DNA of 37,833 nt from Microthrixaceae bacterium (GTDB lineage Bacteria > Actinomycetota > Acidimicrobiia > Acidimicrobiales > Microtrichaceae): contig JAIBBP010000043.1 of the NCBI GenBank assembly GCA_019694615.1, forward strand, positions 1 to 37,833, written 5' to 3'. The notes beneath the pieces are model-generated. The model saw nothing but the letters and a program-made list of their open reading frames with translations, did no database searches and was not told where the DNA came from. Numbering within the stretch: the first letter of the stretch is position 1; each line of letters starts with the position of its first letter. The position numbers and the translations under genes were made by a program. Shown here in pieces: positions 3,399-10,875 of this stretch.

Positions 3399-3875
3399 TC
3401 AATTGCCGATGACCGGCTGAGCCAATCGGAGGCGGTTGTCGTAGTCCTCGTCCCACGGGAGCTTGCCGTTGCGGTCGGGCCACACGAACTGGCAGACGCG
3501 GTACTGCTCGGATCCGTGAAAACGGGTGGCACCCGTAAACAGTTCGGCGTAGTCGGACATGTCGACCGGAAGCATCGCTGCTGGGAGGTCGTTGTCGAGG
3601 AGGCCGACGAACATGCCGTCGGGGATGGTGCCACCAGCGTCGATGTGCATCGCGACCATCTCGATCAGCCCACGCGCCGCCACCGGTTGCAGGCCGAAGA
3701 TCACGACCTCGGGGTGATGAAAGCTGGACTCGAACCCGATGGTGTACGTGTAGCCGGGGGTCGGTGGGTCGTCGACCGGCGCGACCGGTTCGGCACACCA
3801 GCCGTTCGTCTCGACCACCCACGCGATCTTCTCGTCGTGAGCCATGTCCCGGTCGGGGAAGACGTCGTCGCTCAT
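3399..3875 (-). CDS. DUF4262 domain protein
   Basis: A 158-residue soluble protein. The central segment 'GYTYTIGFESSFHHPEVVIFGL' (about residues 41-62) is the hallmark of DUF4262, a family without an established biochemical function. No signal peptide or membrane segment is visible. Its ATG overlaps the stop of the upstream AMP-ligase gene by 4 nt (ATGA), so the two are almost certainly co-transcribed and translationally coupled. Whether the function relates to acyl-adenylate chemistry is unknown. Confidence 0.8.
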   Translation of the reverse strand: MSDDVFPDRDMAHDEKIAWVVETNGWCAEPVAPVDDPPTPGYTYTIGFESSFHHPEVVIFGLQPVAARGLIEMVAMHIDAGGTIPDGMFVGLLDNDLPAAMLPVDMSDYAELFTGATRFHGSEQYRVCQFVWPDRNGKLPWDEDYDNRLRLAQPVIGN

Positions 3876-5371
3876 CGACCGCTCCTCTCTCCCGTCTCCG
3901 ATGAGCCGACCCTATCGACCGGGTCGGCCCCATGTATCGTCGCCGAGAGCGCCGCCCGATCCAGCTTCTGCATGGTGGTCAGCGGGAGGTCGTCGACGAC
4001 GACGAGCGCCTCGGGGAGCTTCCAACGGGCGAGGCGTTCGGCACCGAACGATCGAAGCTCGTTCAGGGATGGCGGTGCGGCGTCGGGGCGAGCTACGACG
4101 ACGGCGACGCCGACCTCGCCCATCACCTCGTCGGGTCGAGGGACGATGGCGATCGCCGACACGTCGGGGTGGTCGCCGAGCACCGCTTCCACTTCGGCGG
4201 GGGCGACGTTGTAGCCGCCGCGGATGTACATCTCCTTGACACGTCCACGGATGGTGACGAGCCCAGTTGCATCGCGCGATGCCAGATCGCCGGTGCGAAT
4301 CCAGCCGTCGACCAACGTGGCGCTCGTCGCCTCTGGATCGCGCCAGTATCCGTCGAACATGGTGGGCGTTCGGAGGAGCAGCTCGCCGGTCGCATCGTCG
4401 GCGAGGTCATCGAGAGCGTCGTCGACGATCCGTACATCGACCCCGGGCCGGGGGCGGCCCACGGTGTAGAGCGCCTCGACATCGGGTGCATCGAACGCGG
4501 TTCCGAGCCCGACGCCGCCCGACTCCGTCGAGGAGTACCGGATGGAGTACTGCGCTCCGAACGTCTGTCGAGCGGCTCGCACGAGCGCCGGTGGAGATGC
4601 TGCGCCCCCGGCGATGATCCGTTCGACACAGCTGACGTCGAGTTCGGCAAGCGACGGGTCGCGTAGGAGCAGAGCGAGCTGAGGCGCGACGACGCCGAGT
4701 GTGGCGATGCGGTGCTCGGCCACGGTCCGTAGCACGTCGCCGGAGCGCCATCGGCCGAGGACGTGCGTCGTCGTTCCTGTTCGGAGATACCACGGGAGCT
4801 TCGTCATGAACCCGACGTGGGCGAACTGCGTCGACGCGAGCATGTGTCCGCCTCCGTCCCAACGGTCCTCCCAGCCCGGCCCGAGGTCGGCCTCACACAC
4901 GGCGCGGAGTTGGCGGTCGCGGAAGATGGCACCTCTGGGGAGACCCGTCGTGCCCGACGTGAAAACGATGGCCACGATTCGCTCGGGGTCCTCGTTCAAA
5001 TCAGGGATCGAAGCCTTGTCGCCTCCCTCGTCGTCGGGGATCGCCTCCTCGATCACGGCATCCGGGTTCAGCCGCTCGATGAGTGCCGCCTGCTCCGATG
5101 GCGCAAGCGACGGGTTGATTCCCGAGGCCGCTGCGCCGAGCTTGGCGGCTGCGACGTAGGTCACGACATAGTCGAACGTGGAATCGAGCTGCAGCGCGAC
5201 GACCGAGCCGTCGCCCACCCCGTCGGCGCGGAGTCTCGTCGCGGCGATGTCGGAGCGCCTGTCGAGCGCCGCGTAGGTGAGGCGCGCTCCGGTCTGATCG
5301 ACGAACGCGGAGCGCTCGCCGAAGCGCCGTGCGGCCTCACGAACGGTGTGTACCAGTATCGCCATGCCCAT
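3872..5371 (-). CDS. AMP-dependent acyl-CoA synthetase/ligase (ANL superfamily)
   Basis: About 499 residues, slightly short for the family. Visible core motifs are the nucleotide-binding loop 'FTSGTTGLPRG' (about 138-148), 'YSSTESGG' (280-287), the 'RTGDLASRD' hinge region (360-368), 'GRVKEMYIRGGYNV' (377-390) and the C-terminal catalytic Lys in 'TTMQKLDR' (K470). It should activate a carboxylic acid as the acyl-adenylate and transfer it to CoA; the substrate is unknown. The start is uncertain: GTG 5374, ATG 5371 and ATG 5365 are in frame. I chose ATG 5371, only 10 nt from a perfect 30-bp inverted repeat. It is coupled to the downstream DUF4262 gene. Confidence 0.88.
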   Translation of the reverse strand: MGMAILVHTVREAARRFGERSAFVDQTGARLTYAALDRRSDIAATRLRADGVGDGSVVALQLDSTFDYVVTYVAAAKLGAAASGINPSLAPSEQAALIERLNPDAVIEEAIPDDEGGDKASIPDLNEDPERIVAIVFTSGTTGLPRGAIFRDRQLRAVCEADLGPGWEDRWDGGGHMLASTQFAHVGFMTKLPWYLRTGTTTHVLGRWRSGDVLRTVAEHRIATLGVVAPQLALLLRDPSLAELDVSCVERIIAGGAASPPALVRAARQTFGAQYSIRYSSTESGGVGLGTAFDAPDVEALYTVGRPRPGVDVRIVDDALDDLADDATGELLLRTPTMFDGYWRDPEATSATLVDGWIRTGDLASRDATGLVTIRGRVKEMYIRGGYNVAPAEVEAVLGDHPDVSAIAIVPRPDEVMGEVGVAVVVARPDAAPPSLNELRSFGAERLARWKLPEALVVVDDLPLTTMQKLDRAALSATIHGADPVDRVGSSETGERSGR

Positions 5372-5381
5372 CACACTGCCA

Positions 5382-5467: not shown

Positions 5468-6994
5468 TCACTGCTCGATGTAGAGCCAACCGTCGGCGAC
5501 GTCGCGAACTCTGGTGCCGACATCTGCCAGGGCCTCGTCGCGGAGGTCAGACCACGGGCGGTCGTGAGCGGGGTTGTGCGCTTCCATCCCGTGATCGGAC
5601 ATCACCAGGATCGCCGTTCGATCGCGAGCCCCCGACCGATCGATCGCATCGAGAACGCGCTCCACCCGTCGATCGCTGTCGATGACCGCGGCACGAACGA
5701 TCTCGGAGTGAGGCCCGCCTTCGTGGCCGGCCTCGTCGGTGAGTGAGAGGGACAGGAACATGAACGTCGGCAGCGGGTTGCCGGCTTCGCGGTTCCACAG
5801 CGAGATCGCCTGCGTTGTGGCCAACTCGTCGACGGCGGACATGAACGCGTACGCGTCCGAGGAGTCGGCCATCGCGGCGTTCGACGTGGCGGTGATGTCG
5901 GGAAACGACGGGGCACGGCCGCTCCGAAAATCGGCGAATGAGCTGACGTCGGCACCGCGGTCGCAGAACTCGAATACGGCCGCCGTGAACGCGTCTGGTC
6001 GGCTGCGATGGATCGCTTCGTGCAGCGTTTCGACATCGGGTCGCAGGTGCACCATCGCTGCGAACATCTCGTCGAACGCGAGGAGGTCCGGCGTGACGCG
6101 GCGTTCGCGATCGAACCACATGTGGTGGAGCACTCCGGAGTGGCCGGGGTGGACACCGGTCGAAGCCGTGGTGTGGTTCGCCAGGGTGGCAGTCGGCAGG
6201 GACGCCATGAGCCCCAGGCCGAGGGCGGTGCCGCCACCGAGGAGGGACCCGATGGCAGGAGCGTCACCGTGGGCGATCGCGTCGTAGAGCTGGTTGGGGT
6301 TGCAGCCATCGAGCAGCACCACCACCACGTGGTCGGCCCCGCCCTCGTGCACGAACGTGAGGGGGTCACCGTCCTGGCGGCGAAGCAGTCCGGCCCGGCG
6401 TCGGGCCCCGGTTGGGCCGATCGAGTCGGGGTGTGGATCCGTGCCGAGGAGCCTCAGGATGGTCGGGGCGACGTCGACCATGCGAGCCGACTCGTTGACG
6501 ATGCCGGCTCGCACGACTCCGGCGCCCGACGCGACGAACGGAGCCCGGGCCTGCACCACCCCGAGCGACCCGTGCTCGCCGAGGTTCGTCCCGAAGCGAT
6601 GCGACGGCGCGTGCTGTACCACCAGCTCTGGCGCGTGGGCCGAGTCGAAGAACTGGGCGATCTGGTCGTAGGCGTGGGGGTAGGCGTTGGCGTCGCGGTT
6701 CGGGAACGGCGCTCGGGCCTCGTCGGCCGACGTGGAGAACCGATCGGTGGACCCGTCCGCTAGTGGGTTCTTCCGATCGAGGTCGACGATCGTGAACTCG
6801 TGGCGCTCCACAGGGACCCCGTCGTGGTCGTCGACGGTGACGGTTCGGCGTTCGAAGGTGACCGAACCGTCCGCCGACGTCGCCCGGAATCGATCGCGTG
6901 CCGGTGACGACAGGACCATGTCGACCGCGGCGTCGAACGATCGATCGGTCAGCGCCTCCTCCAGTCCCTGACACCGGTCATCGTGAGAGCGCAT
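5468..6994 (-). CDS. Alkaline-phosphatase-superfamily phosphodiesterase with permuted motif order
   Basis: 508 residues. The second half carries the usual N-terminal and middle motifs of type I phosphodiesterases/nucleotide pyrophosphatases: 'VVVVLLDG' (metal ligand D229), 'SLPTATLANH' with the nucleophile Thr (T268 or T270), 'TDEAGHEGG' (D420, H424) and 'VMSDHGME' (D467, H468), ending about 40 residues later. The motif normally C-terminal to all of these, a Gly-x-His-Gly followed by 'MVDVAPTILRLLG', lies in the first half (GEHGS with H141; 172-184). The domain therefore looks circularly permuted. It likely hydrolyses a phosphate mono- or diester; the substrate is unknown. No signal peptide is seen. 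Its start faces the SDR gene. Confidence 0.82.
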   Translation of the reverse strand: MRSHDDRCQGLEEALTDRSFDAAVDMVLSSPARDRFRATSADGSVTFERRTVTVDDHDGVPVERHEFTIVDLDRKNPLADGSTDRFSTSADEARAPFPNRDANAYPHAYDQIAQFFDSAHAPELVVQHAPSHRFGTNLGEHGSLGVVQARAPFVASGAGVVRAGIVNESARMVDVAPTILRLLGTDPHPDSIGPTGARRRAGLLRRQDGDPLTFVHEGGADHVVVVLLDGCNPNQLYDAIAHGDAPAIGSLLGGGTALGLGLMASLPTATLANHTTASTGVHPGHSGVLHHMWFDRERRVTPDLLAFDEMFAAMVHLRPDVETLHEAIHRSRPDAFTAAVFEFCDRGADVSSFADFRSGRAPSFPDITATSNAAMADSSDAYAFMSAVDELATTQAISLWNREAGNPLPTFMFLSLSLTDEAGHEGGPHSEIVRAAVIDSDRRVERVLDAIDRSGARDRTAILVMSDHGMEAHNPAHDRPWSDLRDEALADVGTRVRDVADGWLYIEQ

Positions 6995-7859: not shown

Positions 7860-9065
7860 CTACCGCTCGACGCCGCCGGCGGGGCATCTCTCGACGATCA
7901 CCCGGTTGCAGCGCACCTGAGGGCCCTTCTCGAACCCGACGACATAGCCGTTGGCGGCCGGCTCGCCGATCGGGAAGTCCGTCGACACCACCTGCGCACC
8001 CGACTCGAGCGCGAGGTCACGGTCGGTGGTGTCGCCGGTGGTCGCCTCCACCAGGTCGGCATCCGCTCGGGTCCGGATGAAGAAGCCCTGCTTCACCAGC
8101 TCGGTGATGCGCGGAGCCTCGGTCGGATCATTGATCTTCACGACGGCCTGGTCGTCGTCCCCGTCCTCCGCCGAGCTGGTGAACAGCACCCGGCCTTCGA
8201 GCGATGGATGCCCGGCCAGGTAGTCGGTGCGGTAGCCGCCAGCGTTGTCCATGAACAACATGATCTGGCCGCGGACATCGTCGATCTCGGGCCAACCCTC
8301 GGTGGTGACCGCATCGCGAAGCGTCTCGGCATCGCCGCGAACGTCGTCGGGGGTGAGGAGACGTTCATCGTCGAACACCGAGCGGATCTCGGCGTCGAGG
8401 GCGTCCATCTGGGTCGCGTCGATCTTGACGACCTTGGTGATGTCGAGCGGCGCCGGCAACGGGTCGTCCTTCAGCTCGACGTTGATGACGATCGGCACGT
8501 GGTCGGCGTTCGCATCCGACCACGCCCTGATCTCCTGGAGGCACCCGACAAAGGTCGGGCACGTGGTGCCGAAATCGATGTCGACGATGTGGAGAACCTT
8601 GAACCCGGGCGCGTCGAGGCCCGAGGGGATCGGCGTGTCGGGGACGTTCAGCATCGACGGAGCGAGGGGCTTCGCGAACAGTCCACCCTCGGGATCGGCC
8701 CAGATGTCGAGCTCGAAGCTTCGAATGCCGCTCTCGAGCTGATCGGTGAGCGACTGGTGGGTGTAGTTCAGCGCGTTGATGTCGCCGAGCGCCTTCGCCG
8801 GCTCACCGAATGCCTCCACCGCGGCCTTCTCCGCCTCGAAAAGCCTCGTCTCGGGCGCGACGTGATAGCTGTTGTGCGTTCCGATCATCTGCAGCTCGTT
8901 GAGGGCGAGGCCGTCTGACGAAGCCGCGGGCGTGGTCGGCGAATCGGCGGAGCCGTCCCCCGACGAGCAGGCCCCACAGGTGAGTGCAGCGGCCGCCACA
9001 GTCAACGCGACGTGTCGTCGCGCCGACCGCCGGATCGACGACAACCTCAGTGCGACGCCAGCCAC
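7860..9065 (-). CDS. Calcium-dependent PI-PLC-like lipoprotein/secreted phosphodiesterase
   Basis: About 401 residues. After a short basic stretch comes a hydrophobic segment ending 'ALTCGACSSG', a probable export signal and possible (weak) lipobox. The mature part opens with 'LQMIGTHNSYH', the first catalytic-His motif of PI-PLC-C1-type enzymes, then 'YTHQSLTDQLESGIRSFELD', 'VLHIVDIDFGTTCPTF' and 'IVINVELKDD', all typical of that family. It would cleave phosphoinositide-like or other phosphodiester headgroups outside the membrane. The start is uncertain: GTG 9065 overlaps the upstream DUF2505 gene by 19 nt, and TTG 9044 is the alternative. The long open frame continuing to 9749 is not protein-like. 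Probably an operon with DUF2505. Confidence 0.8.
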   Translation of the reverse strand: MAGVALRLSSIRRSARRHVALTVAAAALTCGACSSGDGSADSPTTPAASSDGLALNELQMIGTHNSYHVAPETRLFEAEKAAVEAFGEPAKALGDINALNYTHQSLTDQLESGIRSFELDIWADPEGGLFAKPLAPSMLNVPDTPIPSGLDAPGFKVLHIVDIDFGTTCPTFVGCLQEIRAWSDANADHVPIVINVELKDDPLPAPLDITKVVKIDATQMDALDAEIRSVFDDERLLTPDDVRGDAETLRDAVTTEGWPEIDDVRGQIMLFMDNAGGYRTDYLAGHPSLEGRVLFTSSAEDGDDDQAVVKINDPTEAPRITELVKQGFFIRTRADADLVEATTGDTTDRDLALESGAQVVSTDFPIGEPAANGYVVGFEKGPQVRCNRVIVERCPAGGVER

Positions 9066-9553
9066 TCGTCGCCGAGCCGGAACTCCTCGTCGAGTTGCTT
9101 CTCGGCGAGGCCCTTGGCGAACCCTTCGATCTTGCCGCCTACGAGCGGGATCGAGACCTTGATCTCGACGGTGATCGTGTAGGTCGTCGCGCCGTCGCCG
9201 TCGGCTTCGAGCAGCGTCTGGCCCTTCATGTCGATCGGCACACCCTTGGTGTCTAGGGTGAACGTGCCGCCGTAGGTGCCGTCGCCGAAATCGTTCCAGT
9301 CGTCGATCGACACGACCGTGTTGCGCGGCTTGATGAACTTCTTGGCGAATCCGGGGATGCCGTCGACGTCGACCTCGCGGGTGACGGTGAGGTTCAGGTT
9401 CTTCTTCGTCTTCTTCTTCTCCACGACCGTCACGCCGTGGTGGCCCATGCCTTCGAACTTGGCGATGTGGGCGTCGGGGTTGCTGAACATCTTCCAGCAA
9501 TCGGCGATGGGTGCGTCGAACGTGTGCGTCTTGACCAGCTTCATGGCGGACAT
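9047..9553 (-). CDS. DUF2505 family protein (SRPBCC-like fold)
   Basis: 168 residues, matching the length of DUF2505 proteins common in mycobacteria and relatives. It opens 'MKLVKTHTFDAPIADCWKMF', the usual first strand and helix of START/SRPBCC-like lipid-binding folds, and has the conserved 'VEIKVSIPLVGGKIEGF' near the C-terminus. No catalytic residues are known for the family; binding of a hydrophobic ligand is a plausible inference. It is co-directional and overlapping with the PI-PLC gene. Its start lies 47 bp from a 19-bp palindromic operator that also faces the CoA-transferase, so that site may control both directions. Confidence 0.78.
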   Translation of the reverse strand: MSAMKLVKTHTFDAPIADCWKMFSNPDAHIAKFEGMGHHGVTVVEKKKTKKNLNLTVTREVDVDGIPGFAKKFIKPRNTVVSIDDWNDFGDGTYGGTFTLDTKGVPIDMKGQTLLEADGDGATTYTITVEIKVSIPLVGGKIEGFAKGLAEKQLDEEFRLGDEWLASH

Positions 9554-9599
9554 GATGCCCGCTCTCGTGCAAGTGTGCTCGCTCGATGCGGTTGGCCCT

Positions 9600-9620
9600 A
9601 ATCTGACACTCCGTCAGATT
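9600..9620. promoter_or_regulatory. Operator copy 1 (19-bp TetR-type palindrome)
   Basis: ATCTGAC-ACTCC-GTCAGAT at 9601-9619, extending to 8-bp arms at 9600-9620. It stands 23 nt before the CoA-transferase ATG. A possible -10 box TAATCT (9599-9604) overlaps its left arm, so a bound dimer would block transcription initiation. It is shared with the divergent DUF2505 gene. Confidence 0.8.
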
Positions 9621-9642
9621 TCGACCAAATCCGGAGAACACC

Positions 9643-10875
9643 ATGGCCAAGCCGGCACCCCTCGCAGGAGTTCGCATCATCGAGTGTTCGATCCTCGGGC
9701 CGGGGGCGCTCACCACGCACCTGGTCGATCTGGGCGCGGAGGTCATCAAGATCGAGTCGCCGGCCGGCGACTACATCCGCCGCATGACCTGGCCGATCGT
9801 TGAAGGCGTGTCGCTCATGCACCTCCACATCAACCGGGGCAAACGATCGTTGGTGCTCGATCTCCGCACTCCCGAGGGCGTCGAGGTATTCCGTGATCTC
9901 GCCCGCACCGCTGACGCCGTCATCGAGGGCATGCGCCCCGGTGGCCTGGCGCGGAAGGGGCTCGGCTACGACGACCTGAAAAAGATCAACCCCAAGATCG
10001 TGTTCTGCAACATCTCCGGCTACGGCATGACGGGTCCCTACAAGGACATGCCGAGCCACGGCATCGCGTACGACACGTGGGGCGGTCTCGTGAAGGCGGA
10101 GACCGACGACGAAGGCTTCTGCTACATCCCCGAGCACCCCTCCACCGGCATCCACGCCGGTCCACTGTTCGGCGCGTTCGGTGTGGTGTCGGCGATCCTT
10201 GGGGCCCGCGCCACCGGTGAGGGTTCGGCTCTCGAGATCGCACAGTCCGATGCCTCCGCTGCGATGGACTGGCTGCGTAGCGAGACATGGAAGGCCTACG
10301 AGCGTCCCGAGGACGAGGTGACGGGCAACCCCAGCGACAACTTCGAGCGCCGTGCTCCCGGCACCGCCGGTATGCGCGACGGCGTCCGCTACCAGTTCTA
10401 CGTGACCAAGGACGACCGCCACGTGCTGTTCATGGCGTCGGAGCAGGAGTTCTGGAAGAACTTCTGCGACGGGGTCGGCCGTCCCGATCTGTTCGAGAAG
10501 TGGCCGGGCAGCCAGTACGGCGACCACGCCAAGGGCAACCGCGAGCTTCAGGCGATCCTGCGCGAGATCTTCCTCACCAAGACGGCGGAGGAGTGGATCC
10601 TTTTCGGCGACGACAAGAACACGCCGATCGCTCCCGTGAACACACCGCAGACGATCGCCGAGGACCCGCAGTTCAAGGACCGCTTCCACTGGATGCCGGC
10701 TGACGAGGTCGGCGCGGACATGCTGGGAACGCCGCTCAAGTTCATGGACGTCGACATGCCGAAGATGACCAAGGCTCCGACCGTGGGACAGCACACCGAC
10801 GATGTGCTGTCGTCGGTGCTCGGCTACGACGAGGCGAAGATCGGCGCGCTGCGCGAAAGCGGCGCCATCGGCTGA
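9643..10875 (+). CDS. Family III CoA-transferase (CaiB/BaiF), atypical active site
   Basis: 410 residues, the normal family length. The N-terminal fold signature 'LVDLGAEVIKIESPAGD' and the 'GMRPGGLARKGLGYDDL', 'ISGYGMTGPY' and 'GARATGEGSALEIAQSDA' blocks are all present. These enzymes move CoA between carboxylic acids through an Asp-bound acyl intermediate. In this protein the segment that normally carries the Asp (G-D-x-x-x-G) reads 'STGIHAGPLFG', with Ile170-His171 at the expected place, so ordinary transferase chemistry is in doubt. GGAG at 9633 precedes the ATG by 6 nt. Regulation is probably by the palindrome 23 nt upstream. An 18-bp palindrome follows the stop. Confidence 0.88.
   Translation: MAKPAPLAGVRIIECSILGPGALTTHLVDLGAEVIKIESPAGDYIRRMTWPIVEGVSLMHLHINRGKRSLVLDLRTPEGVEVFRDLARTADAVIEGMRPGGLARKGLGYDDLKKINPKIVFCNISGYGMTGPYKDMPSHGIAYDTWGGLVKAETDDEGFCYIPEHPSTGIHAGPLFGAFGVVSAILGARATGEGSALEIAQSDASAAMDWLRSETWKAYERPEDEVTGNPSDNFERRAPGTAGMRDGVRYQFYVTKDDRHVLFMASEQEFWKNFCDGVGRPDLFEKWPGSQYGDHAKGNRELQAILREIFLTKTAEEWILFGDDKNTPIAPVNTPQTIAEDPQFKDRFHWMPADEVGADMLGTPLKFMDVDMPKMTKAPTVGQHTDDVLSSVLGYDEAKIGALRESGAIG

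Follow-up and report, generated by a model that had tools for sequence, protein, structure and literature searches.

The alkaline phosphatase (AP) superfamily, which includes phosphatases, sulfatases, NPPs and phosphoglycerate mutases, is a textbook case of enzyme evolution. E. coli alkaline phosphatase has been circularly permuted by engineering (Kojima et al., 2005, as cited in PMC2395249), and as far as this citation goes the engineered forms show that the AP fold can tolerate permutation. A survey of structural outliers gave insertion, not permutation, for the alkaline-phosphatase-like superfamily (PMC3779223), and the general routes to permutation have been reviewed as duplication and fission/fusion (PMC3320104). 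In the literature searched, most subscription journals lying outside its coverage, we found no description of a naturally occurring circular permutation for the AP superfamily, and no naturally permuted member was present among the solved structures matched.

In the 37,833-nucleotide stretch of DNA analysed here (the window), the ORF at 5468–6994 on the minus strand, with its ATG start codon at 6994, encodes a 508-aa protein (P0001), for which the initial annotation had noted an apparent circular permutation. Its coordinates for the ORF and its placement of the motifs (GEHG at 139–142, VDVAPTILRLLG at 173–184, D229, T268/T270, D420/H424 and D467/H468) proved to be right. Our analysis indicated that the gene very probably encodes a naturally circularly permuted AP-superfamily enzyme, most similar to the NPP/type I phosphodiesterases. 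The features of the gene are as follows.

5468–6994, minus strand: whole gene, very probably a circularly permuted, NPP/Phosphodiest-like AP-superfamily enzyme of 508 aa (ORF, Pfam, AlphaFold2)
6383–6994, minus strand: residues 1–204, the C-terminal segment in linear relatives (template about 338–497; hhalign and shuffle null)
6773–6925, minus strand: residues 24–74, four predicted beta-strands, placed behind the 'LYL' strand once the sequence is rotated (DSSP of the model, rotated alignment)
6572–6574, minus strand: H141, predicted metal ligand in GEHG, paired with linear H455 (alignment; 39/39)
6443–6478, minus strand: VDVAPTILRLLG helix, residues 173–184, normally the C-terminal helix, aligned to ITDVAPMLLGHFG of the linear relative L060
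6350–6433, minus strand: linker, residues 188–215, bridging the former termini; at the same place the proteins L050–L053 carry what appears to be a whole linear AP domain
5471–6382, minus strand: residues 205–508, the N-terminal segment in linear relatives, with the predicted nucleophile and all of the six metal ligands except H141 (hhalign; VIA)
6308–6310, minus strand: D229, predicted metal ligand, paired with linear D23 (alignment; 39/39)
6185–6187, minus strand: T270, predicted nucleophile, paired with linear T63 and with the Thr of the Xanthomonas NPP (alignments; 39/39)
5723–5737, minus strand: D420...H424, predicted metal ligands, paired with linear D239 and H243 (alignment; 39/39)
5591–5596, minus strand: D467–H468, predicted metal ligands, paired with linear D285 and H286 (alignment; 39/39)

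The Pfam scan matched residues 223–475 to positions 1–226 of the 342-position Phosphodiest profile (PF01663) at 95.1 bits (cut-off 23), and a match to this profile was seen in all 39 members of the P0001 family. The first 200 residues, which hold GEHG and VDVAPTILRLLG, received no Pfam coverage. No signal peptide was recognised in P0001 by eye, and the protein is therefore probably cytoplasmic.

Linear relatives of about 500 aa from the same phylum were found by searching with the P0001 family profile, and they were assembled into a profile of 27 rows, in which two genes are each represented by two rows (L062/L080 and L063/L087). In its natural order, the P0001 family gave two crossing matches to this profile, residues 220–475 to positions 14–293 (hhalign probability 99.4) and residues 21–187 to positions 351–497 (probability 97.0). 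When the halves were exchanged at 204/205, the two merged into a single match of 430 columns over positions 14–497 of 504 (probability 99.9, E 1.1e-32), as the claim of a permutation predicted. In this rotated alignment D229, T270, D420, H424, D467, H468 and H141 fell on D23, T63, D239, H243, D285, H286 and H455, respectively. The termini of P0001 landed on neighbouring template positions, Q508 on 337 and M1 on 338, with neither gap nor overlap, and V24 on 354, which bore out the proposal that the N-terminus continues from the C-terminal GWLYIEQ. These alignments show that, relative to the linear proteins, the chain has been opened directly behind the 'LYL' strand and that its former ends are connected by a short linker at about residues 188–215.

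The same alignments bear on the route by which this order arose. A gene fusion, in which the halves derive from two different AP paralogues (the fusion/fission route), would account for each half matching the superfamily separately, and many AP paralogues are present in these genomes. Against it, the linear family matched by one half is also the one matched by the other, and the halves meet at 337/338 of the template. We consider such a fusion unlikely; it concerns the route and leaves the swapped order itself untouched.

Searches with single sequences gave a concordant picture. The linear-family profile matched the orthologue L016 out of order, residues 17–174 to positions 353–494 and residues 208–293 to positions 10–94. 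The mean score of single orthologues against the linear HMM, about 94 bits, fell to 75 when the N-terminal part was shuffled or reversed; natural and rotated forms scored alike, which is what a permutation read piecewise by a local profile search should give. In a phmmer search against solved structures, the Xanthomonas NPP (Xac NPP) was matched in three pieces in the wrong order (238–294 to 20–75, 402–489 to 153–240 and 135–194 to 319–377), the last of which was not significant alone. For human ENPP4 the best piece was 136–191 to 316–371, within a match of E 3e-6.

Rotated sequences were also run against Pfam. Rotation did not meaningfully lengthen the Phosphodiest match of P0001 (96.2 versus 95.1 bits), which ended near 230 both ways; it lengthened the match for L016 only (from 227 to 272), and a shuffled P0001 control reached 239. 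Pfam was thus dropped as evidence for the rotation. A linear alignment to a family profile, which would speak against a permutation, was not seen, since the Pfam match stops at 226 of 342 and the linear profile matches out of order. The crossing alignments put the motifs of P0001 in an order other than the linear one expected of PF01663 proteins. Because of these crossing alignments, and because the Pfam profile is covered only to position 226, P0001 is a permuted offshoot within the AP superfamily rather than an ordinary NPP.

It could be argued that residues 1–204 are an unrelated domain with a chance GEHG, and that the enzyme is a truncated AP fold. To the absence of Pfam coverage in the first half can be added that this half, folded alone, found no significant match in a structure search, which also counts against the permuted reading. 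The alignment scores spoke otherwise. The N-terminal 204 residues scored 87.6 against the C-terminal part of the linear profile (351–497), whereas 60 column-shuffled controls reached a mean of 15 and a maximum of 22.1, so the swapped motif order is real and not a chance match of motifs. In addition, H141 is invariant and pairs with a conserved His of the linear relatives. The predicted structures pointed the same way. The AlphaFold2 model built from the 39-row alignment was a single confident unit (pLDDT 92.8, pTM 0.94), with the exception of loop 143–147 (pLDDT <50), which likewise weighs against the permuted reading. When residues 1–212 were folded alone, the pTM was 0.62 and residues 137–170 had pLDDT <50; the block 151–170 rose from 34–41 in the first half alone to 95–97 in the whole protein. 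Since this segment is ordered only with the second half present, the models are suggestive of its packing against that half. An unrelated first half is therefore very improbable. In the VIA comparison, residues 219–508 of the model superposed on residues 44–295 of Xac NPP (Z 18.5, rmsd 2.6, 242 aligned), which gives the nucleophile-bearing part an AP-like fold, and no sequential-order counterpart of Xac NPP beyond residue 295 was found in the P0001 model.

The orthologues were then considered. Whole genomes of the phylum often carry the gene: matches with an E-value of 0.001 or lower, partial ones included, were present in 23 of 41 relatives and in 71 of 296 genomes of the class, the weakest of these matches being other AP-superfamily proteins. 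All 38 full-length orthologues have the same swapped order and the same ligands as P0001, as the permutation claim would have it. A misassembly or local inversion in the draft genome, a thought prompted by the window being one contig of a 284-contig draft, is refuted and carries practically no probability, because the order is common to orthologues in dozens of other genomes, several of them on contigs of 4.6–4.7 Mb (G026, G004). Where relatives carry a name, they come from metagenome assemblies of actinobacteria, for the most part Acidimicrobiia (Microthrixaceae, for example). The family also occurs in records titled Acidobacteria, Thermoanaerobacterales and Bifidobacterium breve (L102, L107, L130, L141, L154, L176); all of these are probably mislabelled metagenome assemblies. 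No relative of P0001 was found in the plasmid collection, and a contig scan with the single P0001 sequence as the query returned no matches.

Analysis of the alignment of P0001 with its 38 orthologues revealed that H141, D229, T270, N273, H274, D420, H424, D467 and H468 are invariant (39/39), whereas T268 is Thr in 37 of the 39. T270 aligns on the Thr of SLTFPNH in Xac NPP, a residue that is Ala in 7mw8; H424 aligns on the His that is Ala in 7n1s; and H141 falls on H363 by the same alignment offset. In Xac NPP, T90, H214 and H363, the positions matched by T270, H424 and H141, are the nucleophile (T90) and two metal ligands (H214, H363). T270, not T268, is thus the predicted nucleophile, because it lies on the SLTFPNH Thr and, unlike T268, is invariant. 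The two-metal ligand set and the Thr nucleophile are complete in P0001, all seven positions pairing with identical residues of the linear relatives, which implies, as judged from sequence, a presumably active two-metal hydrolase. One position counts against a permuted active enzyme: residue 291 (T270+21), which corresponds to the phosphate-binding Asn111 of Xac NPP at T90+21, is Asn in 35 of the 39 family members and His in four, including P0001 (H291).

These results led us to propose that the two halves of the permuted enzyme would pack as in the linear enzyme. On this proposal, H141 of the first half would complete a two-metal site with D229, D420, H424, D467 and H468 around T270. By analogy with NPPs, hydrolysis of a phosphoester or phosphodiester by the enzyme may then proceed by way of a phospho-threonine as the covalent intermediate. 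The fold looks ordinary, and so does the chemistry; the novelty lies in the chain order. This order is kept across the class with the catalytic residues intact and, within the literature searched, is new for the superfamily.

The gene neighbourhood was also inspected. In about 20–30 acidimicrobial loci the permuted gene lies among glmS-, glmM-, ribosomal-protein- and rpoA-like genes, on the opposite strand (L116, L137, L143, L160, L174), these names being by-eye readings of the sequences; the recurrence suggests a shared position rather than a pathway. In the window, an AMP-binding, acyl-CoA-ligase-like gene (3872–5374, minus strand) follows the permuted gene in the same orientation, 93 bases downstream, and the two possibly form an operon in this genome. 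The window holds further acyl-CoA-type genes besides the AMP-binding ligase (SDR, CoA-transferase III, acyl-CoA dehydrogenase and thiolase). Since the neighbours in the window recur beside only a few orthologues and the ligase pairing is not general, a functional tie to the acyl-CoA genes is only a lead. Another ORF of the window (7860–9749, minus strand) carries a PI-PLC-C1 domain (Ca2+-dependent phosphoinositide phospholipase C) at residues 281–615 as listed. Its long N-terminal part overlaps ORF 9047–9553 in another frame, and its true start is therefore probably further in.

Two further groups of proteins are relevant to the history of the swapped order. The L058-type proteins (L054–L059, L064, L066, L068), of about 550–820 aa, have the same swapped order as P0001. 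In natural order their profile matched that of P0001 in one piece (76–429 to 149–482, probability 99.5, score 175.9), whereas against rotated P0001 the match split into two (131.6 and 57.4). Their N-terminus lies near the 'DV..P' strand, and their C-terminus appears to keep more of the middle segment. A genome often has more than one such gene, with neighbouring copies in L058, L064 and L068. A tree built from the half with the nucleophile set them apart as a clade (100/100); a topology uniting every swapped-order protein in one clade was not rejected (p-AU 0.288).

The second group is that of the tandem proteins:

L050 1121–4948, L051 1574–5116, L052 1216–5244 and L053 828–4994: tandem AP proteins of 1181–1389 aa

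Their segment order is C1-N1-C2-N2. Against the P0001 family, C1 and N2 scored 54–61 and 145–167 bits, C2 at most 11 bits, and N1 49–62 bits unsplit and 23–35 per piece if split. N1-C2 has stand-alone linear homologues (L183–L186), with which N1 clusters (100/97), and Pfam takes N1-C2 of L051 for one full linear domain (2–340 of 342). N2 falls inside the P0001 clade (98/80). Thus, each of L050–L053 appears to consist of a permuted AP domain whose halves are separated by a linear one. The C-terminus of L051 carries an extra Ig/CarboxypepD-like domain. A recent duplication of one permuted domain does not account for the tandem proteins, as a tree in which N1 and N2 form one clade was rejected (p-AU 4e-9). 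The inserted linear domain may be a relic of the permutation route or a later insertion. It is a doubtful but conceivable scenario that swapped-order APs arose more than once in Actinomycetota (the P0001 and L058 types) and that the nested proteins preserve a tandem-then-loss route; if true, the history of a natural permutation would be readable from living forms.

That a whole bacterial class retains a permuted form whose active site is complete points to a core that can accommodate a chain start placed before the segment bearing its last metal ligand. The permutation also explains the partial profile annotation, as Pfam annotates only part of these proteins because their chain order is permuted. 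Moreover, the presence of linear, permuted and nested forms in one phylum makes the order of events testable.

Taken against known systems, P0001 shares its catalytic positions and Thr nucleophile with Xac NPP (PDB 2gsn, 2gsu, 7mw8, 7n1s), which differs in its linear order and in having Asn where P0001 has His at 291. The engineered E. coli permutants, known to us from a citation, belong to the same superfamily but are man-made and of another family. The linear Actinomycetota APs of about 500 aa (L060, L062, L069–L093) align over their full length to rotated P0001 and carry all seven catalytic residues; they differ in their linear order, at about 21% identity. The L058-type proteins share the swapped order but form a separate clade with other termini and an extra C-terminal stretch, and part of them have signal- or lipoprotein-like N-termini. 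In the tandem proteins L050–L053, the outermost segments have the P0001 family as their best match, and a linear AP domain, absent from P0001, appears to lie between them.
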